In this document: positions 1,028-46,679 of the stretch, in pieces | Layout: each line of letters starts with the position of its first letter | Position numbering within the stretch: position 1 is the stretch's first letter | Assembly (NCBI GenBank): GCA_015657535.1 | Contig: JADHZB010000394.1 | Coordinates: 62,001-126,000, forward strand | Origin: Nephromyces sp. MM_2019 | Lineage: Eukaryota > Apicomplexa > Aconoidasida > Nephromycida | Length of the DNA stretch: 64,000 nt | Reading direction: 5' to 3' | Position numbers and translations under genes: made by a program | Notes under the pieces: model-generated | Databases searched by the model: none | Told to the model about the DNA's origin: nothing | What the model saw: only the letters and a program-made list of their open reading frames with translations

Positions 1028-2023
1028 TTAGAGTTGTAAGTTGTTTCGATATGGGAGTTCATAGTCATTAGCTTCATTAACAAGTCTTTGAAGAGGTTGA
1101 TATTCATCGAGATCATGCTCAATAGCTTTATCATCATCCTTGCCAACTGTTAAAAAGATGAGCCCTAAAATAATAACAATGATTCCAAAAACAAATAATG
1201 AATAATTCCGAGGATATTCATGATATACGAGCGTTGAAACTAAGGCTCCGGAAACAATCAACGAAGAATTAATTATAGAAGCTACAAATCCAGCTATTCC
1301 ATTTTTAAGACTCAAATTCCACAAGAAAGCTTGGAATAAGACAGATGCAATTGCGGAAAATGCCATAATAATGAAAAGTACAAGTTCCTCCGTGTTAAAT
1401 GGTTTGTTTGATAATTCATTAAAACCTATAGATAAAGCTTTACAAAACATATTTGTAAAGCCACCCATAAATCCACATGCAATTGGTAAGCTAACTTCGG
1501 ATATCCACCTAAAGTGTTTAATTTTTTTGAACTTTTTATATTGAAATAATAAAGCAGTAAAAACTATAGATGCATTAATTATTATGAAGATATAACTCCT
1601 TGATTCAAAGAAAAGTGCTTTGACAACTGATAGATCGGTAAAATCTTTAGCTGTTGAAGCTTGAACCAGAGTTATTATACCCAATATTTCAAGTAGAGAG
1701 CCAAAAGACTCTGTTAGAGTTATTTCTTCTTTTAGCCAAACTTTTGATATTAAGACAACAAATACAATATGTACCCCTGCAAATGATGAAACCAAACTAA
1801 GAGGAATGTATCTTAGTGCTAAAAATGTAAGCGCAGAATTAAAAGCAGTTGTGCATATTATACCAGCCCACCAAGTTGGGTTTTTGAGGAAGTGAATTCT
1901 TTTGTCAGGTTGACTCTCAGAAAGATGAGCCTTGCGAACAAGGCTGTCACCCAGAGCGCCAAAGAGGGCTGCTGCTGTGTTAATTGCAATACCAATCCAA
2001 AAGGTTAAGGTATATTCCCCCAT
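1028..2023 (-). CDS. NIPA-like magnesium transporter (DUF803 family)
   Basis: An intact single-exon protein of 331 residues, unusual here because nearly every other gene is split. It is a multi-pass membrane protein with about nine hydrophobic segments. Family features are the start GIAINTAAALFGALGDSLVRK, the pair FGSLLEILGIITLVQAS, and a late segment with FGIIVIILGLIFLTVGK followed by an acidic cytosolic tail. NIPA and NIPA-like proteins belong to the drug/metabolite transporter superfamily and move Mg2+ in endosomal and plasma membranes. Length is usual for the family. The ATG at 2023 is the only sensible start: it directly precedes the first membrane segment. A close alternative is another DMT-type carrier, so the ion is inferred from family resemblance. 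Confidence 0.82.
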   Translation of the reverse strand: MGEYTLTFWIGIAINTAAALFGALGDSLVRKAHLSESQPDKRIHFLKNPTWWAGIICTTAFNSALTFLALRYIPLSLVSSFAGVHIVFVVLISKVWLKEEITLTESFGSLLEILGIITLVQASTAKDFTDLSVVKALFFESRSYIFIIINASIVFTALLFQYKKFKKIKHFRWISEVSLPIACGFMGGFTNMFCKALSIGFNELSNKPFNTEELVLFIIMAFSAIASVLFQAFLWNLSLKNGIAGFVASIINSSLIVSGALVSTLVYHEYPRNYSLFVFGIIVIILGLIFLTVGKDDDKAIEHDLDEYQPLQRLVNEANDYELPYRNNLQL

Positions 2024-2304
2024 ATTCTTAGTTATATATAATTATGCCGTAATTTTACTATTGGTGTGAAGATTATTATGATACTAAAAAAAGAAAAATT
2101 TGAACATGTTATAAAAATGTTCTAAATTTAAATTTGTGTTGGAAAAATCGTTTAAATTCGATAAATTGAATAATATTTGATTCATGTAAGCTTTCCTAGT
2201 GTCGTGCTATAGCATTAAATTTACTTTGTCAGCAAGCGTTTTTATCAGTTGCTTTGGTTGTTATGCTTTTCTTCGATTCATGCTCTTGATGGCTCTTTCT
2301 TTTA

Positions 2305-3469: not shown

Positions 3470-5088
3470 TTAAGTTCCTATTCCCCTAACAGTTGATTCG
3501 TTGATTTCCAAAGATGGGGGATTGGGAAAAAGAGACTGTAATAAATGAACTATAATTTTATTAGTTTCATAAGAATAAATTAAACTAGCTTACATCTGGT
3601 TGATTGTTAATCTTATTTACTGATAAGTCATGAATGCCATCAACAGAACCTATGAATATAAAAGAAGCTTGCGTTATATAAAAGCTATAAGTTATTAAGA
3701 TATTTTACTAAGTTATAGTATTATAATGGATTTGGAATTTCAAGCAAGTGAGGTTAGTGGCTAAACTTACTTTCCTTGCAATCCTGTTGTAGATTTGAAA
3801 TGACTTGACTTAGTTCGGACGGGATCTCGTTAAAATCTATAGTTTCTGTGCTTGTCTCAATTGGTAATACAGCTTCAATTGGTGTAACAAACTCAGAGCT
3901 TGGTTCAGTTGGTGTGATATACTCTGAAGAGGATAAAGCTATATTGTTATCACTTTTGTTTCTGTTGGATACGTATCTGGATATTATAACGCCTGAAAAA
4001 TCTTTTGCTTCGAAGGACTTTATTTTTCCCTGAAATAAAATAGTAACTCAAATTTCAAATCAAAGGTTTGCAATTAAGTTTTACTTCAATTGAATTGATA
4101 GTTTCCTGTTTAAGTGATTCAGTTAGATTGTTCATTTTGGAGGGGTACCAAAATATCATAGGTTGGCATTTCGTTCCTATAAAGTTCTTCATGTTGTGAT
4201 AATGATTAACAAGATTTATTCGAGTTAGTTCATTTTCTTTTTCTATCAACTTGGATTGAATTAAGTCAGCTTGTAATAAATCTTCAGCTCGTTTTTCTTC
4301 GAAATCCCGTTTTTTTAATTCTAAAAGGTTACGCTTGCCAAACTCGAGTTTCTCTTCAACCTTTTGGACCTGGTATCGTTGTAATTGAGTTTTTTTTGAG
4401 TTTTCTTCTTTTTGTAGTTGGTCCCTTGCGCTGAAAAGATGGCTTAAAATTCCGACACTCATCATTCTTCGATTTCGATCTTGGGTTTTATTATCTTGTG
4501 TTATTTTCGGCTAAGAGTTAAAAAGAAATTTGAATTGAATTATTTCAATGCAAGGCATAATGGCTATTTTCTTTACCCTCTTTTCCACTTCGAAATCTGG
4601 GCCAAAGAAATTACTGTTTCCAGAGTTATCCTAAAGTTTTGAGTAATTGGGAATTTCGAAGTTATCATAAATGTCATTACTTGGCAAAGAATAGCTTACA
4701 AAAGTTCTTTTATTTGAAGTTTTAAGTTGGGGCTCATTCTGAGTTTCCTTGAGTTCATCGTTTGTATCTAAATCCAAGTCATTAATAGTGTTAACATAGT
4801 TTGGTGTGTTGATTAAAGTTAGTATATAAAAATGAATTGCTTCAAGATCTGTCTTAAAGATGTCTATCTATAAATTGAAGCTATAGGCAGATAAGTGTGT
4901 ATAATTCTGATTTGGTTACCATTAATATTACATGTACCTGTCAGTTGTTGATCATTTCTCCATTGTTTCTGTTGTGGGCCTTTCGAGTATTTAGGTCTAT
5001 AAGATCTCAGTCTATCATTGAGGCTGTCTCTTTGTGCTACTAGCTTTCGTATTTCTTGTTGAATCTCAATTTTTTCAGATGCAGTCAT
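3470..5088 (-). CDS. Pinin-like splicing/exon-junction factor (Pinin/SDK/memA domain)
   Basis: Seven exons were traced: 5088-4938, about 4860-4702, 4630-4581, 4509-4087, 4031-3771, 3646-3592 and about 3524-3470. Exon 4 carries the Pinin/SDK/memA signature: RNRRMM near its start, where human pinin has RNRRIF, then a long charged coiled coil, KKRDFEEKRAEDLLQADLIQ matching the ELFEERRAKQ block, and NFIGTKCQPMIFWYPSKM matching KYIRTKTKPHLFYIP. Exon 1 is a basic helix like the N-terminal pinin region. An apparent in-frame TAG near 4630 is removed by an intron with a GTAAGC donor and CTTTAG acceptor. Pinin acts in nuclear speckles and in the ASAP/PSAP complex around the exon junction. The C-terminal tail is acidic and unlike other family members, as expected for a divergent lineage. 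Confidence 0.8.
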
Positions 5089-16655: not shown

Positions 16656-19600
16656 TCATGTTCCTTCATCTCCCATTAGTATATTGAAAATATTAATAAT
16701 CGCAACAGCCATAACCTCACTGTTAGAACGGATCACAATTTGTAATTTTCCTTGATTTTGGCCATCCCCAAGTTCAATCCTGATGATATTAACAAAAGAA
16801 GTAATATATTATCTCAGAGAGCAGCCATAAACTAGTCAGTTTAAGAAAATTTAGTTAAATGTTTTATCACCTGACAAGTACATTGTATAGTAAGCTTCCT
16901 TTTTGGCTATGCTGGCATGTAAATATGCCAAATAGGACAATGGACTTGGGCGAATCATCAAAAGCATCACATAGATATAGTGCTCCACCCTGTGTTATAA
17001 TATCGATGAGATTACTCAATACACATGAAATATAGATATTAATAAACTTATCATAGTTACCAATTGTGATAACAATGCTATTTCTGAGACAGAGACCTTA
17101 TCCTTAGGGCTAAGTTTTATAACTGAAACATCTGTCAAATAATATTAAAAACATTAAAACCAGTACATTGCTAAATATAAATACGTACGGGTTTTCATAG
17201 TATACAATGGGTCGTTCCAATAATCAAAAAATAATATTTTATCTATAGGAATGGCAGCAACAAACTTATTTATACTGATGGGTAAGTAAAGCTCTTTTTT
17301 AAAAGAAGATCCATCGGCTAACCTAAAAGATTAATTAACAAAACATCAATAGTAATATCAATTAGAGCTTAAACTATATGTAAAGAAGCTTGTAAATCTT
17401 TTTGTAAATTTTTTACACAAATTCTAGTCTGAAAATTGGATATTCCTCAAATGGTGTCTCACAATTTATCTGAATTTTCTGGAAAAAAAAAATATATAAG
17501 CCAGGATATCTAAATGAAATAAATGGGATGTGACCTGATAGACTTGTTCATGAGCATTTAACTGTTGTGGTATACAGGAGGCACTGATTTTAAGACAATT
17601 TTCGTCTGGAAGGAAAAAGGTTGTCTCAACATTTTGAAGAATTGTGGATTGCTTGTTGCCGATGAATAAAAACATCTTTCCCTTACAGCCGCTGAAATTA
17701 GCTTTTATTCCAATCTAATATGCATTACAAATTTTCGTTTTAAAGATCTAACTTTGTTAATAGTCAAATTAAATTACCTGAATGCTTTCATCCTCATACA
17801 ATACAGAGTCATTCCTAATTAACATTTTCTTGAAAAATTTAAGACACTTTTTATCCTTTAAAATGTTATTTCCTGTCATTTCAGTGTATTTTGAGTTGGA
17901 TTCTCTCCATGAAAACTCATCGAAATAAAGCTTTTTGAGTGTTTGGGTGTAAGGTGCTGTTAAACCATTGGATGTATTATCATTTGTATTTCTTTGTTTC
18001 GAGTCAAGTTCGATAGGAGTAAATTTCTCGCAGTTATCCACAGAGCTTAGAATTTGCTGACAAGACAAGTTTCAAAAATTTTAACAAGTTTTGGGGTGTC
18101 TCAATCTAGCAGGTATGTCATTATTCTACTTAAGGTTGTGAAAATGTTATTTATAAGATATTGTTATATTCGATATAGTAAAATTCTTAATGTTTTTCTT
18201 CCTGTTTTCCAGCAAAGTTGCATATAGATTATTTTGTTAAAAGTAGGTTTTGGTAATAATTAGACTTGTATTTTTTGTGTTCCTTAGAAAATCAGAATGT
18301 TAAGTTGTCTTGCGATAGATATATCTAACATGTATAGCTTAACTACCATATAAAATTTGAGTAGTGATTAAAAAAAAACTTTTCTTATTTTTGTTAACCT
18401 CAGTTAAAGCATTTTCCAAATCGATATTTCCAATGATATCCTTTTTTGGATGACTAGGTAGCTTGTTTTTATTTGACTTGATGGTTTCGGCTGGGTTTTT
18501 TTGTAGTGGGCTTGAGCCTTCAAGTTTTGTGCTATTATCCATATGGAGAGACGAGCCTTTTGAAGGTGTAGAAGGACTGAGTAAGTTTATAATAATATAT
18601 TTATGAGAATTAGCTACAGAAATATTATACATAATTAGCTTATACATCAGTTATAAAATACATTAAATGTATATATTATAGAAATTGTGTATAATAGATG
18701 AATAGAATACAATTTAATATGTAGATAAACTTGAAAATTAAACTTTATCTTAAAAGAATAGTTATTTTGCTATCAGTTCGCACTAACTTAGTGAATTTAA
18801 TAGGTGCTATCTTATTTTTCCTTGGGGGTACAGTGAGAGCCATTGCCTTAAATTCAGGTAGTTGCGTTACATTGCTGGTCCTAGGCTGGAAGAAAATAAT
18901 GAATAACTAAATAAAAATCGCTGGGATTGTTATAATTTATGATATTAGAGTTATTGTTAGGTTTCTTATTTTGAAAATTTGGTAAGGAGCTTGTGTCAAA
19001 AAATGGAATCTATATTTTGTTAATTACACATAAAACAAGAATATTGTAAAGACAACTAAAATGGTCAAAAAATATACTAGGGATAAAGCACTGAGTGTGT
19101 CATATAAGGTTTGTTTGTTTGAAAAGGAATCTGTGGCTTAACCTCATATGATTTCTTTGAGGATATGGATATATTCTCATCCTTTTGATTTTCGATCTTG
19201 TTCTCTAGCGCTTTGATGTGTGATTCCAATTGGAGGAATTTAGTTTCGTATACTTTAAGTAAAATTGAATAGACAGATGTAAATTTATGTAACAAGAACT
19301 GAGGGTTTAGTATGATTACTCTTGATTCTCTCTTCAGAAATGCGCATTTGTTTGTCTTTAGATTCTATTTGCCTTTTCCATTCACTATGGTCTCTTTGCG
19401 ATTGGTTTTCTAATTGACTTATCATATTGGTTAAATTCTGTAGAAAATTCTTTAATTCATAATTCATCGGGTTTGTATATGTTGTATATTTATTAAAACT
19501 TGGGTAGGAATGAATTTATACAAAATTAGATAAAATTTGATTATGAACGAAAAAAGTTATTTTTATTGATGCATATTCAAAGTATTGGAAATGTAGCTAC

Positions 19601-22571
19601 GTCTGAATCCTCCTGAGGATGTTTTACTCAAATGTACTTAATGCTAACTGTGAGTTTGTTTTCCAATGATTTCATTTGTTCATGTTCTCTGATTTTGTAC
19701 GTTGGAAATGGCTCTTTATCTGCCTTTACCTATTGCAAATCAGCATATTTAAATACGGATACAAAACATTATTGACTTAGCTTAAGTTTTAATATGATTA
19801 ATTAAACTTTTATTCATTAGAAAAGTTATTAGGATTTAAGACAAGTAAAATTTTAATCAGTTACGATTAAATTATGTTTTTATTTGGAAATACATACATA
19901 TTCAAATACTGAAGGACTTTGGGTATTTGTATCTTCAACCAGTGCTCTTTCTGAAGTGGGTTCTAGACTTTCACATGGGGGGTAGGAGTTAGCTGATTTT
20001 ACAATTTCTTCAGGATTGGGGTACCCATTTGAAAAATTTTCAGAAGCTTTTCTTGGTTTTATTTTCTTTGTATTAGCTCCTTTTGTATGTTTTTTCGTGG
20101 GAGCTTGAATTTCTTGAGTTGTAGAAGGTGGGATAGTAGTATCTGTATTAGCCGGAGATAATTGTGCAGGAACATCTGTATTCAAAAGTGTTGGACCTAA
20201 TTAGTTAATAATAATAGTTATAAAGAATTTATTCCTTGTTAAGAACAAAAGTCATGAAGATCAATGGAATTTTCATCAGTTGGAGTAGTTTAAAAAAAAT
20301 TCTTTCCAATATAAAGACATGGCGCTTTCAAGTTAGTTTGTAAATAGAAAAAAGGCTTTTAACTTAAAATATGGCTACCTTTTTAAGTTAAGTTTTGATA
20401 TACTTATAATAATCTAGATGTAGAAATTATAAGACAAACCAGTGGCACTTTCATTAGAAATAGAGTTCATGTTTACAAGGATTAATTCTTCGGTTAATTC
20501 TTGGGATGAGTTTTCCAATGAATTTTCTAAAGGTTAATTAATAAGGTAATAGTTATGAGCATGTTAAGGTGATCCTTCAAACCTACCTTTAACTTTCTTT
20601 TCAGCTATTCTTTGTGCCAATTCCCATTCACCAAATTCAAAGAGTGCACCTTTTACTATATCTATAACCTATTATGTATATGTGTTAGATTTTATTATAG
20701 TTTGAATAGGATCAATAAATTTTAAGTCTATAAATATATTCTTGTAGTTTTTTAGTTTTCTAAATAAGTAAGTGTGTTTTAATTAGATCTAATTTGTTTT
20801 AATTTGCTTCAAGACATACCTTAGTAACTTGTTGAGAGTTCTGGTAGTTTGAGTTGTTTATGATTGAAGCAGCAAGATTTTGTAAAGTATTTAAAAGACT
20901 GATTAAAATTAACAGGCCTAGCAATATATACATCATATTTAGGCACGGATAATCTTACTTTCTGCACTGTTGTGCACACTCTTCAATGATTTCCTTCCTG
21001 TCAAAATCTCCAACCTCGTTGATCATCTCTTTCAATAGCTCGGCAGCATTTGTAGCCTCTATTTAAAAAGGAAGATCAACGTGTAGAAAATTCTCGAAAC
21101 TAAATGAGAATAAATAATATTTAACCAATTAATTTATTTTCCAGAGATATATTTTCCTCCAAGGAATCTTCTGGGTTAAGAAAGGAACCCTTATTAAGGT
21201 CGCCACTAGGTTGTCTTATGGGTTGAGAGATTTTTTCAAATTGAGGCTTGATATTTTGAGTTATATCGTTGGCAATTATATTAGAATTATTAGAATCTCG
21301 GATAGAGGATGAATTGAGAGAAGTGGGAAGCTGTTGTGAAGGAATAGCCTAAAATTAAGTTCAGTAAGTGGAGAATTCATGAGCATTTATGATCTAATTT
21401 GTTGTTATGATAATTGTGTGTAAAATAATCGAAGATAAATCTAGTAAAGTGAATCGGTAATCAATTTGTTTAGAAAAATTGAACGACATAAAACTAATCC
21501 TACAATATATTAATTTTAGCTAAAATGATGTTATATTTCTATTAGCTGATCTAGTTAACAAATTGGGTTTCGAATTTATTCGACCCTATATTTATTTTAT
21601 AAAATAGTTATTATAGATTTCCCTTACCAGTGTTGGAAGTTGCCCTGAGAGTATTATCCCAGTTTTAGCTAAATTTTGGAATGCTTTTCTAAATTTTTTA
21701 TATTCTTTGAAGGTTTCGTCCATAGTCGACTTGAGTAATAAAAGTGATTTGTTTGTAAAAGTGAAATGCAAATAAATCTGCCTAATTGTATAGTGCTTAC
21801 CCAGCTTTGTAGCATTTGGCAAGCGGCTTCTATGCATTGGGTAACGTCTAAGTTGCTTACATCCTGATTAAAATAAGTCGCTTTTCTCTTTCTCAAGTTA
21901 TTTTCCTATACGTAGTTTATACATTTTGTGATTCATCCTACAGATGTTATGCAATTAGAAAAAAATTATCATGAAAGTCTTGTTCAGATATATTATAATC
22001 GAGGTCTCATTAGGGATTGGATACATGTTTTTACCTTCTTTCTTTTCGCTAATTCCTCAATCTTTTTTAATAAACTTGATTCAGCTACATATCTTGCAGC
22101 AAATGGATCCATTATGGTTAATTGTTCAATAATCTGTTAAATTGAAAAAGAATAGGAATAATGTAGAGTTTCGCAGTAGAACAAGTATATAAATATATTT
22201 CGTGTCTGATTGTTGATAATACAAACTGATGATTAAATCTAAAAGTTTAGTAATTTTTTATTATTCTCAGCACTTTATTATTGAATAATTATTGATTAAT
22301 TATTTTAAAAATCTAGGTTTAAGTAGTTTGCTACATAGCTAAACTAGCTATTGAGGAGTTGCATATTGAAGATTACCTTCAAGCTCAACTTTTTTACATT
22401 TACTGGCTGATCCAAGCTCTTAAAAATGTTCCATGAAAGACCAATAACGTGATCTGAATGATTAACCCCTCGATTAATTACAGCTGAGGCAAGATGGTGC
22501 CAATTCGCCTGGAAGGAGGCTTCACTAGTTACACACTTGGTAACTAGGGTGTTTACTTCATTTATAGTCAT
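16656..22571 (-). CDS. VHS-GAT-hinge-alpha-adaptin-ear protein (GGA/KIC4-like clathrin adaptor)
   Basis: About 22 exons and about 990 residues, with no in-frame stop. Exons 1-4 (22571-21629) form a VHS/ENTH-type helical domain: MTINEVNTLVTKCVTSEASF, then QIIEQLTIMDPFAARYVAES, then CQMLQSWG. Exons 6-7 match a GAT domain (ELLKEMINEVGDFDRKEIIE, ECAQQCRKLLNTLQNLA). A polar hinge follows, rich in Pro, Thr and Ser, with a short coiled coil (about 19440-19144). The C terminus (18058-16656) is a complete two-lobed appendage. The sandwich lobe begins LYEDESIQIGIKANFSGCKG; compare human alpha-adaptin [20 protein letters not shown]. The platform lobe includes LPISINKFVAAIPIDKILFF (human [20 protein letters not shown]) and ends MGDEGT. 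GGAs have VHS-GAT-ear but only the sandwich lobe; AP-2 alpha has both lobes but no VHS. The nearest description I recall is Plasmodium KIC4 of the Kelch13 endocytic compartment. A role in clathrin-type sorting or micropore endocytosis is inferred. Confidence 0.85.
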
Positions 22572-34548: not shown

Positions 34549-35501
34549 TTCTAAATTCCTATTCCACTAGTTCTAGAAATGTTTATAGATCAAAAATATA
34601 ACAGTCATTAAAGTCCTCGTTATTTATAATTTTGATTTATGTAATAATATTTGCCAAGTATAGGCGATATACACCTCATTGCCAAACTTAAAACATTTTT
34701 GCCAATCTTAGATTAATTGAATATATTAAGCTTGAATGGCTCTTTAAATTATTTAAAATAGGGAGAACAAATTCCTAGACCAAGCATAAGACACTTTTTA
34801 AAAAAATTTATTATAAAATAAAATAACAATCGAGATTACCACTAACAGCTTTATGTGTAAGCAAGCTTTACAAAATGGGAGCATTAAAATTAGATACACC
34901 ATGTTAACCTGAACAAAGAAAAATTAGTCTCAAGTTTTCGGTTGCTCAGTTAAAATTTTGTAGCAGGTGGGTTAGTGCATATGATTAATATTTTACTCAT
35001 TTCCCTAAGCTTGCAAATGTTAGATAAAAATTAGTAATAACACTTTATCAAAAAATGAACGTCTTTACCGTTTTCATACTATAATAAAAGATAAAATATT
35101 TTATAAATAACATTTTTCAAAAAGAGAGATAAAATTATCATTTACGCCAACAAAATCTCTCATTTATTTTAGATTGTATTTTCTATATAAATGTGTTTGG
35201 GAAAGCAAATATATAGCAAATTATGTGTCCTAAACCAGTAAATTTTGTACCTTAAAATACAAACTATTAGATTATGTTATGTGATCAAGTGATTATATAA
35301 CTACTCATTGTGGTTTCTGCGCCTAAGTCTTTGCTAATCTCGACTCCTTTACTTATATTATATTTAATGTTTTTACAAGTTTAAACTTTATACTAGACTG
35401 ACCAATGAATTTTTGTTATTAATTTTTTTAATTAGTTTTTTCAAAACTATGAATCATTTTAGATCAATGTGAACTTACAATCACTTTTTAATACGAGCGA
35501 A
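34549..35501. other. Upstream region of pantothenate kinase
   Basis: Very AT-rich. An acceptor-like CATTTTAG just before 35462 leaves open an upstream 5' exon of the kinase. Nothing else was seen. Confidence 0.35.
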
Positions 35502-38256
35502 ATGTTCAATCCTACAAAATATTATTCAGTCACTGACACATCACAAACAAAGAGCGAGTTAATTAGCTGTGAAAATGATTTTGAGCAATCAACGGCTTTA
35601 ACGGACTCTACATTCACCTCCTCCGAGATCTCATCCATGACTTATGCCTCTCAAGTAGCCCTAGAAAATGCTTTATCTAAACACCGTTGTGCTTTGGATA
35701 TTGGTGGTACCCTGGCTAAATTGGTCTACCTCTCCAACCTTGAAAACAACGAACTAAAGGAAATAGATCACAAGGCCCATGATCTACCCTATAAACTTGA
35801 CGAAGAACTTTTAGGAGGTATTATATCTGAGTCTAAGAATTTGACTTGAAACAACTCGAAACTTGATACATTTTCTCCTCCAAAAGGCTAACAATAGGAT
35901 TCATGAAACTAAACAAATTAAAATGCTTCAAACCCTCGATCTTTATATATAATCATAATATGTGGATTGGTGCCTAGAATAAAACCCACAAAAACACCAT
36001 TTTCATATTAAAAGACTACAAACTTATATTTAATACAACAGAACCGACTGAAGATGAATACCACTTATACCTTGAATATAACCAGCGAAACACTGAGGAC
36101 CTACAAAAGAGGCAAAATAGTTTAAAGAGACTGCGTATACCAAGTTAGCTTTACATAATATAGAAGCTGAATTCTAAGAGTAAAATCTTTCTGTGAATTC
36201 TCAAAGTTTCGGAGAAGCATCAACTATGCTTCAATTACTTCCACTCTCAAGATATTGAATTAATGGTAGATTTTATGATAAGTAAGTTGACAAATTAATA
36301 AATCCGTTACTATATTTTTTAAACTTTTACAAACTTGCTCATGGATTATATAAATTTGAAAATGTTTCACAATATTCCCAAATGGAGAATAAATACAAAA
36401 TTTTTTTCAGAAAACAATCTGGTTTCTGAAGGGGATAATTTGAATGTAACTGGAGGTGGTGCCTATAAATATTCCGATATTTTAACCAAAAATATGAGGA
36501 TTAATTTGAAAAAGAAGGATGAAATGAATTCAATTATGAAGGGGTTGAGCTTCTCATTAACCCTGTGCAACAGCGTTTTCAGATATGATATTAAACATAA
36601 AATTAGGGTGCCAATAACATTGGTAAAAAACCAAAATATCTTTTAACTATTATATAGGCTTTTAAGCACATTCGAGTTTTGAAAGTAGGCTCTCTAGTTT
36701 AAAATCAGTATTATAAAAATTTTTATAGGCTGACCCTATCTACCCCTTTCTTGTCGTGAATATTGGATCTGGAGTATCTATTCTCAAGGTGAGAATTGAT
36801 CTTTTTAAGCCTTAATAAAATAATTATAACTTGGAAGAATTTTACCACCTATCAGGCAAATAGTCATGATGACTTTATACGAATAACTGGGACTTGTGTT
36901 GGTGGTGGTTAGATGAATCTCATTTGCTATTTTCAATTTTAAAATAATTTAAATAATGATTCAAATTGCATTTATAATTCAAGTATTTTAGTGGTTAATA
37001 CTCTAACTTTTAGGAACAGTTTTAGGACTCGCTAAACTTATTTTTGGAGCTCAATCTTTCAACGAGGTAGCAACACTTTCAGAATCTGGTAACTTTTTTA
37101 TGAATAATTATAAGGAACCCAAGTATATTAGATTTGTTTATCCTAAAACGCTTATATTTAATTCCTTTAATAGGGTCTGATGAGCTTGACTTGACTGTTG
37201 GGGATTTATTTGGAGATAACCTACAGTCTACGCAATCTCTTTCATTACAAACATTTGCTAGCAGGTAACCCTTTATAAATTATTTAGGCATAGCGATAAC
37301 ATTTGATAATGTATAGCTTCGGAAAGGTCTTTTTTATGGAAAAGCAGACTGATGAAGAAGTTTATAAAAGACTTACAAGGTCATATATAGCAACTCTTAA
37401 TTTTTCGGATAGCAAATTAACTTACTCTTCGATTATTATTAAAACAGTAAGGCGAATATAGCACGCAGCCTCATACGAATGGTTTCCTACAATTTGGGTT
37501 ACTTAGCCTATCTCGTTGGGACTATACACAATGTCCACCGGTAATCTTTTCACAAGACCTAGTTGATTTAATAATTGTGGCTACAAAATTCCAACTTTTT
37601 TAAAATGAAATTACAATTCTGAACAGAATATTCTTTGCTGGGAAATACATTGACAACCATGCCTTTACAATGGAATGTCTTACATACGGTGTCAATTTCT
37701 ATCAATCTCAGTATCCTATATTTGATCAGACTACTACAAACTTGCAGGGTAGGAATAGCCATAAGCACTTTATATCTCTCATATAAGTTTACCTTTTGAT
37801 AAAAGTCTCTTGGTATCACACCATCAGAGAATTTTTTGCTTGTTCAAGTTAACACTTATCTATCACTTTTTAGAACCTTCAATATCTAATTGTAACTTGT
37901 TCAACAACTCAGGCGATCATTCTTATCATTTAGAACATCCACACTCTTTTATTATTTCCAACAACAGTACCCTTGTAAGTTAAATTTACAATTAAAATAA
38001 CTATATCAAGACCCAATTATCCATTTTTTCATCCGTGCAACTTAGGAATGTCTCCAAAACACCTCAAGGACCTCATGTTGTAATAATTTAATGGAGCCAC
38101 TTAAAGACTTTGAGGTAATCTCCTGAATTTCAAATTATATATGTAATTTACAATCCCTAATTAGATAATACTTGAATTATTCCCTAATTTAATTTATAGG
38201 TATTTTTTCTGAAACATGACGGCTACTTAGGTGCCCTAGGATCCTTTCTATCCTGA
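35502..38256 (+). CDS. PANK: Eukaryotic type II pantothenate kinase
   Basis: Fifteen exons, all in phase after removing two introns that otherwise leave stops (35818-35897 and 35970-36041). It catalyses ATP-dependent phosphorylation of pantothenate, the first step of CoA synthesis. Visible motifs: the phosphate loop ALDIGGTLAKLVYL, LCFNYFHSQDIELMVDF (human LHFIRFPTQDLPAFI), VTGGGAYKYSDILTK (human CATGGGAYKFEKD), PFLVVNIGSGVSILK (human PLLVVNIGSGVSILA), RITGTCVGGGTVLGLAKLIF (human RVTGTSLGGGTFLGL), VGDLFGDNLQ, SFGKV, SYNLGYLAYLVGTIHNVHR, IFFAGKYIDNHAFTMECLTY and the C-terminal VFFLKHDGYLGALGSFLS (human LFLEHEGYFGAVGALLG). A Cys/Ser-rich insert before the last motif (37874-38114) is not in the human enzyme. 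Apicomplexans typically carry two PanK paralogues; only one is in this window. The ATG at 35502 is the first in frame; a spliced 5' exon is possible. Confidence 0.94.
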
Positions 38257-41751: not shown

Positions 41752-44700
41752 ATGTCACATGTTCGTGGAATTAAAGCAGAGATGTTAACAGTAAAAGTAG
41801 CAGCTAGACTTAGGCCATTTACAGAGAAAGAAATTAAATGTGGTGATCAGCTTTGCATTTTTATGGAAGGTAATATACGATAAGGAGCCACGTTGATGAG
41901 TCTATGTCTCGAACCTTCAAACTTGATTACACATATTGGTCCTTTGATAGTTTTACTATAAAACCTTCAGAATGTAGAGCTTCAAATGATATTGTATATG
42001 CTGATCAACTAAAAACATTTGAAGACATAGGAGTAGATATGAATAATAATGCCTGGGGAGTATATAAAGTTTATACTTTTGCCTATGACCAAACAGGCTC
42101 AGGCAAAAGTTATACGATTTTTGGATACGATAGTAATATAGGTTTAGTGGGTAGAGTAGCGCAGGGGCTGTTCAATAAAATAATAAAAATTTGAGAGAAG
42201 ACCTTAGGTACGATGTGTCGATTAGCATGTTAGAAATCCATAACGAAAAGGCGCACGATCTACTAGTCTCATCTCATCATCTAAATGAAAGTGGCTTGGA
42301 TATAAGGCAAACGCCCCAAAGTGGAACTTTCGTCCAAGGATTAAGCAGTATAAGGGTTGAAAACTGGAATGAGATTATGCAATGTATAGACAAGGGTAAT
42401 AATAACCGTGCTATTGCGGTAACTCAAATGAACTTGAAATCTTCAAGAGCACATACTATTTTCAAGATATTGTTAAAGCAAATAGAATTCGATGCAAAAT
42501 CGATTGGAGAGTTATGTCAAAAAGTTCCTGATATTTACTTTATCGATTTGGCTGGGTCAGACAAGGAAGAAATCATTGAATCCAATCTTAAAAGAAGAAA
42601 AGAGATTGCAGCTATAAATCCGTCTCTATAGAACTTGCGGAGAATTAAATCAATGCTAGCCGATAAAAATAATAAGAAAAGTACAGCTAACAATGTTAGT
42701 AAGTATGCTCATTACCTCGTAAATTCGTATAATGCTTTGTTTTCAATTATAGACAGGTAATCCCTTATAAAGATTCAGTCATTATAATGATTTTGCAGGA
42801 TGCCCTTGGTGGAAATTTTAAGGCAACAATGATAGCATCGATATCATCATCATTTCAATCATTTTCAGATACTCTATCAACTTTGACGTATGGTGCTAGA
42901 GTTCAACAAATTGACACACATGCTAAAGTAAGTGAAAACCAACTCCACCGTATGGTTTTTGAGCTTCAAGAGAAAAATGAACAGTTAAGGAAATTACTTC
43001 AAGAGGAATGTGAAAGTGAACTAATTTCTGATATAACTGAAAAAGTCTTGAGTAATAAATCTCAGCTAACAGAGAGTGATGCTGCTATTGAAGAAATATC
43101 CAAAATTTGGCTTGAACCATCTTTGAAGCAAGAGAAAAAGCCTTTTTATTACAAACGCCTTATGAGGATAATTATGAAAATCCTTGTTTGAAGAGCGTTA
43201 ACGTGGATCCATTTTTATCAGGTAGAATTTCGAAGCTTATCTGTGTAGTTCTCTTGCTTGAGCAGTATTGATAAATAGCAAACAATGCAAGCTAGTTGAT
43301 ATTTTATTTATAGAATTTTAAACTCATCAGGTTATCTTATTGAATGATTATGAGATATGCAAATTTGAGCGAAAGTTTAACTTAATATGAACCTTTAAGG
43401 GAAGCTAACTTTTTACCTAAAATAGGAGACTAACTATATTGGACGAGAAGATTATTCGAATTTACCACATGTTGTCATAGGAGGTGCAGGAACCGAGAAA
43501 TATCATGCAATTATTTGTGTCGAGAGACAAGATCTAAAATCAGGTATAATTGAATCAAAACTTGTTTGTACATTAAAAAATAAATGGAGTGCAAGGGTTA
43601 ATGATGTTCAACTTGAACGTGAACAAGTTAAACAACTTTGTAATAATGACAGAATAGTTTTTGGTAGTCACAATCTCTTTGTGTTCTCTGATACTGGAGA
43701 AAAAAGGAATATACTTCCTGATTGGTACGAAGCAATGCAAGAAGCGAATCATCATTATTTTAGACAATTTACTGATAGAGTAGCAAATGTAGAAATTGCT
43801 TTTAGAAACATTGAAAGTAGGTCAAGTGAAAAAGTGAGCGAAGCTAACAAATGTCAACATCCTAAGATTTCAAAGGACGTAATAACAACGATGGTAGCAT
43901 TGGTTGATGAAATTAATCTGATTGCTGAAGAGATGCATCAAGCTTATGCTTTCAAAGTTAGATTAGTCACAAGTACAAGGATATTCGATAAAGATAGGAA
44001 AACTGATTTAATGAGAAATGCAATTTTAAAAACTGAAATCCTTTTATGTAATTATCGTATTGATACAAGAACTTTACAGTTTTGATCACAAGACTTATTC
44101 GAGGAGCAAGTTTATGAAATAAAAGATTTGTTTAATATGTGGTTGTCCTCACAGTCTTCCAAAAGTAAAATTGAAAACTTAATGATCAAGAATAATCCAT
44201 TCGAGTCAGTACCAGGCTCGTATTATTTTATTGGTAATAGCTTATATTTCTAAATCATACAAAAAAATTAATTCAATTTCAAAGTGAAAGATTTCCACTT
44301 TTAGATTATAAGGGTAATAGGCTGGGAGATTTGATAGTTAATATTGATATTATACTCTTACCAATTGAATCTGCTTATAGAGAATATTTAAATGAACAAT
44401 TTCATGGGATGAGCTAGAATTTAAATATAAAGATTGCATTAGTGATTATTACAGTATTGAAGAGGTTTTAGGTAGGATTATACGAATACACTTTTCAATT
44501 GAAGATATTATTTTATTGGAGCAGAATTATATTAGTAACATCCAAACTGTGTATAAATGGATTGATGAAAACTTTCAGTGTAAAGTAATTTTTGAAAATC
44601 ATGAAAAAAATAAAAGGTTTGATACATGAAAACAATTTCATCGTCCCAATTAATCCTGAAACCATTGACTGGTTCAATGGAGTAATGGTATTTGAAGTTT

Positions 44701-45411: not shown

Positions 45412-46679
45412 TCAACGGTATGGTACTCCATTTCTCCCTAAGTGATCACGATGTCTTTCATCAGTATGGTCAACAATTAGAGAAGGGTCTTGAACTGATT
45501 GTATATATGTGTCACATGGATATGTTCCAGGGAAATATGTAGGGTGGGGCCGACTCATTCTTATGCAATCTGAGCTTCTTCCAAAGTATGCATTAGGAAT
45601 AGTCTGAGGGTAAAAGTCATGAAAGTTAAAGCTAAATTTTAGTCAATAAATATTATCAAAGGTTTGAAAAATTAAGAGTAAAATTAAGTATTAAATAGTT
45701 CAATTCCTGAAATTAACATTTGATTCATAAAAAACATTTAAGTTCTCCTCATTACACATACCTCGTCTTCATGCTTCATACGGTAAGCCTGGTGATCTAT
45801 CATATTTTTTGCAACTAAAGGGTTCTTATTAAGATGAGGTGGTGGTATAGTGTAATTCTCAGTTATTCGATTGGTTCCATTTCTCTTATGCGGATTACTT
45901 TTGGGGCTATTTGTGTGCCTTATTGGAGGTTGGTGCTTCCTATGTGGTATAACACCTCGAACCGCATATTGTTGATTATTTTTATTAATATCATTTTGCT
46001 CAGAGTTAATATGGAGCCCAAGCGGGGTAAGAGTGTTAAGTGTGTGGCTAGTTACAGGTCTTACTGCATCCTCGACATTTTGGCGATATTGATCATATTC
46101 CTCAGGAGATACAAAAAGCTTATAGTTAATCAAACTTAAGAATTGTGCCTCCATAAGATTAATTTCGTTTGTTTCTACTCCACCAACTCGAGCATAAAAA
46201 GAGTTTGAGAAATAAACATCATCAAAAAATTTTGCAGCTAGCATGATGGAGGTAATAAGGAGTCGATGAATGTTTAAAATAGAAACAGCAAAGCCGTCAT
46301 GTAATTTTACAATACGATCTATATAGACCAAGCTAAGAACAAAACATTCATTACTACATCTGAAATATTTAGCAATTCGTTCTAGATATTCAACTACACC
46401 AATTGTAGGAGGTGTAACACCATGGAATCTAGTAATTGTGTTTTTTCCTGAAGAGGGTAAAATTTTGTTATCGTTTTTTCACTTTGAATTAATTCATAAC
46501 AAAATAAATTTGGGATAATACTCAGAAAAGAATACAAGGTTGTTGCACTTACTATCATGTTTTGGAGGATTTAAGCTGATTAAATTAGAGAGAACTTCGG
46601 CAAGCCATCGTATAAATCTATCATCGGTTGGTTTAGCGATGAAGGGTTGAGGGGAGTTACTCAATTGGTGTGATTGCAT
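45412..46679 (-). CDS. Pho80/U-type (P-type) cyclin
   Basis: Three exons in phase: 46679-46550, 46449-45766 and 45606-45412; about 335 residues. The cyclin box is in exon 2: ITRFHGVTPPTIGVVEYLER, IAKYFRCSNECFVLSLVYID, RIVKLHDGFAVSILNIHRLL, then ITSIMLAAKFFDDVYFSNS and NLMEAQFLSLINYKLFVSPE. The RLLITSIMLAAKFFDD and YFSNSFYARVGGV motifs are diagnostic of the Pho80/PCL and plant CycU group, which pair with Pho85-like or other CDKs. The C-terminal part is long, Pro/His/Asn-rich and ends near HTDERHRDHLG; it is probably disordered. Apicomplexan genomes contain several P-type cyclins with roles in nuclear cycles. The partner CDK cannot be told from sequence. Confidence 0.87.

Follow-up and report, generated by a model that had tools for sequence, protein, structure and literature searches.

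A Nephromyces gene that most likely encodes the KIC4/KAE adaptor of the apicomplexan endocytic micropore

What kind of adaptor is encoded by a gene that appears to join the VHS and GAT domains of one protein family to the two-lobed ear of another? The gene in question lies in a window of 64,000 nucleotides from Nephromyces sp. MM_2019 (contig JADHZB010000394.1, positions 62,001 to 126,000). The ear of the GGAs is of the gamma type, and the TOM1/TOL family has the VHS-GAT front end in common with them and lacks an ear. From the evidence set out below we consider it most likely that the gene encodes the KIC4/KAE adaptor of the apicomplexan endocytic micropore, probably as a single chain consisting of a probable VHS domain, GAT, hinge and two-lobed alpha ear. 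In the excerpts of PMC10718435 that describe it, KIC4 of Plasmodium comprises VHS, GAT, an adaptin appendage and a platform lobe, a layout with which the preliminary description agrees, and in those of PMC10105704 its Toxoplasma homologue KAE is a protein with an alpha ear that occurs across the myzozoans that have K13.

The gene is real and lies where the preliminary description had placed it, on the minus strand, where it is modelled with 22 exons (Table 1). The spliced model runs from an ATG at 22571 to a stop that ends at 16656 and yields a protein of 974 aa. GT...AG boundaries and consistent phases, as present in 21 of 21 introns, were conditions imposed when the exon model was built by hand. 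The codon-usage score exceeds zero in all 22 exons (barely so in exon 7, at 0.01), the model frame scores best in 20 of the 22, and the GC content is 0.354 in exons versus 0.247 in introns. The exon 6/7 junction had been given as CRKLLN, which is incorrect, the spliced model reading ECAQQCRNLLNTLQNLA. In intron 13 a possible extension of exon 13 or an extra exon was noticed; it was left out of the model and the domains are unaffected.

Table 1. Features of the gene, in positions of the window
Feature	Position	Strand	Extent in protein	Basis
Whole gene	16656..22571	-	22 exons, 974 aa	exon model and codon-usage score
Likely VHS domain	21628..22571	-	exons 1-4, residues 1-167	modest profile support
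Linker between likely VHS and GAT	21126..21348	-	exon 5	exon model, coding signal
GAT domain	20587..21058	-	exons 6-8, about residues 242-329	Pfam GAT at residues 245-291, below cut-off
Hinge, heptad-rich in exons 11-13	18399..20526	-	exons 9-15	exon model, heptad count
Ear, sandwich lobe	17291..17831	-	end of exon 16 to exon 19, about residues 728-836	Pfam Alpha_adaptinC2 736-834, PDB AP-2 alpha
Ear, platform lobe, alpha type	16656..17290	-	exons 19-22, residues 837-974	Pfam Alpha_adaptin_C 852-963
Exons 1-4 (high-low)	22571-22377, 22133-22035, 21905-21801, 21729-21628	-
Exons 5-8 (high-low)	21348-21126, 21058-20959, 20898-20820, 20668-20587	-
Exons 9-12 (high-low)	20526-20440, 20196-19898, 19729-19649, 19437-19320	-
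Exons 13-16 (high-low)	19252-19143, 18885-18788, 18576-18399, 18056-17778	-
Exons 17-19 (high-low)	17714-17535, 17478-17417, 17322-17189	-
Exons 20-22 (high-low)	17131-17061, 16989-16871, 16779-16656	-

A hinge without a database match, together with an interval between exons 13 and 14 that allows other readings, would suit two neighbouring genes that were merged in the model, the upstream one encoding a VHS-GAT protein and the downstream one a free-standing alpha ear. We regard such a merger as improbable: all 21 introns measure 56-342 bases with continuous phases, the hinge exons (5 and 9-15) have a coding signal of 0.37 bits per codon as compared to 0.30-0.53 in the other exon groups, and the joined layout has been published for KIC4 (excerpts of PMC10718435). 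Exons 1-22 are presumed to lie on one transcript.

The ear is the best-defined part of the protein. Its two strings in the preliminary description, LYEDESIQIGIKANFSGC and LPISINKFVAAIPIDKILFF, are present in the spliced protein, and the two-lobed AP-2 alpha-type ear that they were said to represent is borne out. In a Pfam search of the whole protein the three best matches were, in order, GAT, Alpha_adaptinC2 and Alpha_adaptin_C, of which only Alpha_adaptinC2 lay above the cut-off. In another Pfam search Alpha_adaptinC2 reached 6.1e-11, again above the cut-off, and Alpha_adaptin_C 8e-4; the platform lobe searched alone gave 1.3e-4, and these two values are below the cut-off. Against the PDB, the ear matched AP-2 alpha appendages at 4.7e-19 over positions 67-276 of 322, i.e. 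reaching both lobes, and the best seven of the ten sequences listed were AP-2 alpha (4.7e-19 to 2.3e-17), with neither beta nor GGA ears among the ten. The platform lobe alone gave two PDB matches, with AP-2 alpha second at a weak 1.7. Using the customary AP-2 alpha residue numbers and pocket roles, we compared chosen positions in an alignment to the letters of 1b9k: seven of the nine covered are identical (725, 740, 742, 782, 836, 837 and 840), 839 and 849 differ, and four further chosen positions fall outside these letters. W840 is confirmed as a pocket position in PMC5694535.

An alpha ear on another body is also what would be seen in a KIC5-like protein or a rearranged AP-2 alpha subunit, and KIC5 indeed has an alpha-type ear without the trunk according to the excerpts of PMC10718435. 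In those same excerpts, however, neither VHS nor GAT is named for KIC5, and the Nephromyces protein has a GAT match and lacks an Adaptin_N match (no Adaptin_N trunk was listed in Pfam for the whole protein at E-values up to 10). It resembles AP-2 alpha in both ear lobes and the conserved pocket residues and differs from it in the missing Adaptin_N match. The reading as KIC5-like or a rearranged AP-2 alpha is given very little weight.

In the case of the GAT domain, the helical bundle that had been proposed agrees with a Pfam match of 7.2e-5 on a 161-aa piece (23.4 bits) and of 0.0011 on the whole protein (19.5 bits), both below the curated cut-off of 31 bits, and with our own profiles: none of 2000 shuffles reached the score with GGA3 and TOM1 pooled or with GGA3 alone, and 11 of 2000 did so with TOM1 alone. 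The score was 13.1 bits with the GGA3 profile versus 7.0 with the TOM1 profile, each built from one sequence.

Residues 1-167 are likely a VHS domain, for which the support is modest and suggestive, and this is the weak part of the architecture. Of the earlier claim of an N-terminal VHS/ENTH domain, what stood is that profile scores beat most shuffles; Pfam, searched with the whole protein as well, gave no VHS match, and the PDB gave none. With profiles built from eight solved VHS domains, the hmmsearch score was reached by four of 2000 shuffles, and the local and global hhalign scores by none of 300; among 139 windows from five other proteins, none reached the local score and six the global one. 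A GGA-only profile was matched by 5 of 2000 shuffles and one of five non-GGA VHS domains by 85 of 2000 (1947 shuffles scored). The matched part consists mostly of the last ~35 residues. A fold prediction for exon 1 (65 aa; mean pLDDT 54.5, three helices) was too poor for a structure search and was left unused. The VHS fold is presumed.

These preferences for GGA profiles, both for GAT and for VHS, and the order VHS-GAT-hinge-ear on one chain, as in GGA1-3, are what a GGA (a monomeric Golgi adaptor) would show. Yet the GGA ear lacks a platform lobe (excerpts of PMC10718435), whereas both lobes match here and are alpha-type, and GGA ears were absent from the PDB sequences listed for the ear; the chance that the gene is a GGA is accordingly slim. 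As for the hinge, the short coiled coil described earlier corresponds to a heptad-rich stretch, best at residues 474-501, that was seen only in a crude home-made heptad count, and a motif scan of the hinge found no NPF, FxDxF, DLL or L-hydrophobic-x-hydrophobic-acidic motif.

By its layout, as likened to the published descriptions, the protein is most likely the KIC4/KAE counterpart. Like P. falciparum KIC4 it has GAT, a hinge in which no fold is detected, a C-terminal two-lobed adaptin ear and, likely, VHS; the KIC4 platform, however, was assigned to the beta type (IPR015151) on the basis of a predicted structure (excerpts of PMC10718435), whereas the platform here matches the alpha-type Pfam model only. 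With Toxoplasma KAE (TGME49_272600) it has in common a conserved AP-2 alpha ear at the C terminus, a remaining body unlike that of AP-2 alpha, coiled-coil motifs and an organism with K13, but KAE is longer (ear at 1406-1672) and is described, in the excerpts of PMC10105704, without other conserved domains, whereas GAT is detectable in the Nephromyces protein. Most KIC4 domains were recognised via predicted structures, and in KAE the ear alone was recognised; here, unlike in KIC4, GAT and ear are detected from sequence alone. The expectation of more readable domains held for GAT and both ear lobes (two of these three below Pfam cut-offs); for VHS the sequence is suggestive.

The same assembly contains K13 (strung exon pieces of C252 versus 4yy8, 2.5e-132), and the proposal that the gene marks the K13 machinery therefore fits, the assembly being seemingly mixed and C252 and the window being assigned to one organism on similar GC alone. 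There were also 22 alveolin and 2 AMA-1 matches, and a second gene resembling K13, judged by eye, on C513. An EH family search of the assembly did not find Eps15; its one match (0.1) falls, by our reading, on EF hands that belong to a calcium-dependent protein kinase. An AP-2 alpha trunk was looked for in the assembly and not found, and neither was a second KAE, all 21 matches of one search and all 4 of another falling in this gene. These searches are insensitive, because a query with the AP-2 alpha sequence P0001 missed known ear exons and PF02883 and PF02296 also failed: PF02883 gave nothing at 0.001 and, when the limit was raised to 10, placed an exon of C174 (0.063) ahead of this gene (0.18), and PF02296 gave nothing, controls included. 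In a large protein database, no match was found among the best 7984 candidates scored for the whole spliced protein or the best 7995 for residues 1-330; a further search with the spliced protein gave one match, P0001.

Eps15 binding has been published for the KIC4/KAE system (excerpts of PMC10718435 and PMC10105704), and, as a point against the reading, no endocytosis defect was seen in blood-stage assays when KIC4 was disrupted or removed by knock-sideways (excerpts of PMC10718435). Toxoplasma KAE suggests by analogy that the ear likely performs the partner binding that in AP-2 falls to the alpha ear: WxxF motifs of an Eps15-like protein would be held by the sandwich lobe, and DPF/FxDxF motifs by the platform lobe. 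Cargo, ubiquitin or an Arf are the likely ligands of the VHS and GAT domains, and on the hinge the ear would extend from the membrane within the K13 ring; the cellular location and all binding partners are presumptive.

More tentatively, and with rather less than even confidence, we suggest that the founding KAE was a VHS-GAT cargo adaptor that captured a whole two-lobed AP-2 alpha ear, by which the Eps15 hub left the AP-2 complex for a monomeric adaptor whose hinge has no clathrin motifs. The beta type reported for the KIC4 platform would then be either a derived state or a wrong label on an alpha platform, and the VHS-GAT-alpha-ear form would be ancestral in apicomplexans and a separate endocytic adaptor class.

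The analysis confirms and sharpens a published idea and does not describe a new system. What appears new, modestly, is that the platform is alpha-type as judged from sequence and that GAT and ear are legible without structure prediction. For KIC4/KAE, which belongs to the K13 endocytic machinery, this would tie the ear to AP-2 alpha and not to AP-2 beta, the legible GAT and ear lobes support an old age of the joined layout, and a relative of this kind may offer an easier entry to binding tests.

The ear of the KAE candidate, the proposed KIC4/KAE counterpart, is two-lobed and of the alpha type, as the preliminary description had it, since both lobes match AP-2 alpha in Pfam (the platform under the cut-off) and among solved structures. 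The three top matches in a Pfam search of the entire 974-residue protein were Alpha_adaptinC2, GAT and Alpha_adaptin_C (see table), with Adaptin_N absent from the matches; searched by itself, the platform lobe matched only Alpha_adaptin_C (1.3e-4, under the cut-off). Among the solved structures recovered with the ear, AP-2 alpha appendages took the top seven places (between 4.7e-19 and 2.3e-17), with alignments that extend into both lobes, and three further proteins ranked behind them at 0.039 or worse. The platform by itself gave two weak structure matches, i.e. poly(A) polymerase (1.6) and AP-2 alpha (1.7). A three-sequence alignment of the ear contains 45 invariant columns (identities 28 and 30%). 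We queried 13 AP-2 alpha positions; nine were covered and seven of these are identical, positions 839 and 849 being different. W840 is described as the centre of the AP-2 alpha platform site in the text consulted from PMC5694535.

The claimed GAT domain was likewise recovered, both by Pfam, under the cut-off, and by profiles scored against shuffled sequences: the pooled GGA3 and TOM1 profile reached 16.7 bits and the GGA3-only profile 13.1 bits (0/2000 shuffles in either case), and the TOM1-only profile 7.0 bits (11/2000). These scores support a GAT identity, without discriminating between GGA and TOM1 descent. An N-terminal VHS domain is likely, judging from sequence profiles, although neither a Pfam nor a PDB search found VHS in the residues of the candidate. 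Profiles were made from eight solved VHS domains, and in hmmsearch (2000 shuffles per profile, unscored shuffles counted as lower) the score was reached by 4 shuffles for the pooled profile, 5 for the GGA-only profile and 85 for that of the other five domains. With hhalign, none of 300 shuffles reached the local or the global score; among 139 control windows from five other proteins, four of which have adaptin-type helical trunks, none reached the local score and six the global one. The local test gave the same counts (0/300 and 0/139) when rerun without re-alignment or merging. The alignment covers chiefly residues 124-160, and a single-sequence fold of exon 1 has three helices at low confidence.

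Features in the window, in the KAE candidate protein (residues) and in locus L053
Feature	Position	Strand	Remark
KAE candidate gene	22571 to 16656	-	22 exons, product 974 residues
GAT (Pfam)	residues 245-291		0.0011, under cut-off
Alpha_adaptinC2 (Pfam)	residues 736-834		3.9e-10, above cut-off
Alpha_adaptin_C (Pfam)	residues 852-963		0.0026, under cut-off
NIPA magnesium transporter match	1028-2041	-	open frame
Pinin match	4055-4510	-	open frame
Fumble pantothenate kinase match	35463-35849	+	open frame, under cut-off
Kinesin motor exons, then open frame	42179-44085	+	weak FHA match in open frame, under cut-off
Cyclin match	45738-46478	-	open frame
Calcium-dependent protein kinase, EF hands	L053 1423-3090	-	single open frame, by eye

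The exon model was assembled manually from the reverse-strand sequence and agrees exactly with the coordinates and exon count first proposed, the exon 6/7 junction of that proposal being one residue off (N for K). GT...AG introns were imposed as a condition, so that all 21 comply; phases are consistent across all junctions and intron sizes range from 56 to 342 bases. The exons have a G+C content of 35.4% versus 24.7% for the introns. A codon-usage score, trained on 2044 codons from other genes with the introns of the candidate gene as background, is positive in 22/22 exons (just 0.01 in exon 7), and the model frame scores highest in all except exons 1 and 3 (20/22); introns, taking the top frame of three, score -0.24 to 0.19. 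Intron 13 (window 18886-19142, minus strand) may contain an extension of exon 13 or an additional exon, and the hinge is uncertain there.

The source assembly (48.28 Mb, 1127 contigs) encodes K13 on contig C252 (loci L020, L022): its exon pieces, strung together, gave Plasmodium K13 as the top match (2.5e-132), ahead of a designed propeller as runner-up (7.8e-77); by eye, a coiled-coil exon precedes BTB and kelch exons are also present. There are 22 alveolin matches, with one control bacterium matching as well, and two AMA-1 matches on a single contig, with none in the controls. AMA-1 is a mark of apicomplexans. Because of the K13, alveolin and AMA-1 matches, the source is most likely an apicomplexan or a close relative. 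A second K13-like gene, judged by eye only, lies on C513 (L013, L019), with a G+C of about 0.38 versus about 0.31 on C252. Gamma-COP (L002/L001; C224, C1046) and a beta-type adaptin, typed by eye (L043/L044-L045; C174, C784), are each present in two copies, with a G+C of about 0.29-0.33 and 0.38-0.43. As several gene families are thus doubled at different G+C, the assembly likely mixes two related organisms; similar G+C is the sole basis on which the C252 K13 and the KAE candidate would be placed in one of them.

The layout of the candidate, with its likely VHS domain, fits the VHS-GAT-appendage order given for KIC4 in the part of PMC10718435 consulted, in line with the KIC4-like arrangement initially suggested. 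By sequence, however, its platform is alpha-type, whereas the same source reports a beta-type platform for KIC4. The candidate also fits the account of Toxoplasma KAE as an ear protein of K13-bearing organisms in the consulted text of PMC10105704, according to which KAE is found throughout the myzozoans having K13, and the ear of Toxoplasma KAE, unlike that of AP-2 alpha, binds Eps15L via WxxF. With its alpha-type platform, the candidate favours an alpha ear, as read in the Toxoplasma paper, over a beta-type one. The text of PMC10105704 also describes apicomplexan endocytosis as clathrin-independent, although PMC12742282, by its title, reports a part for clathrins when the malaria parasite takes up host cytosol. 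The hinge lacks matches to the scanned clathrin-box patterns, the single match falling in the ear. By analogy, we infer that the candidate may do the same job as KIC4/KAE, i.e. it would act as a monomeric adaptor, the ear of which would collect Eps15-like partners while the front end might bind cargo or an Arf.
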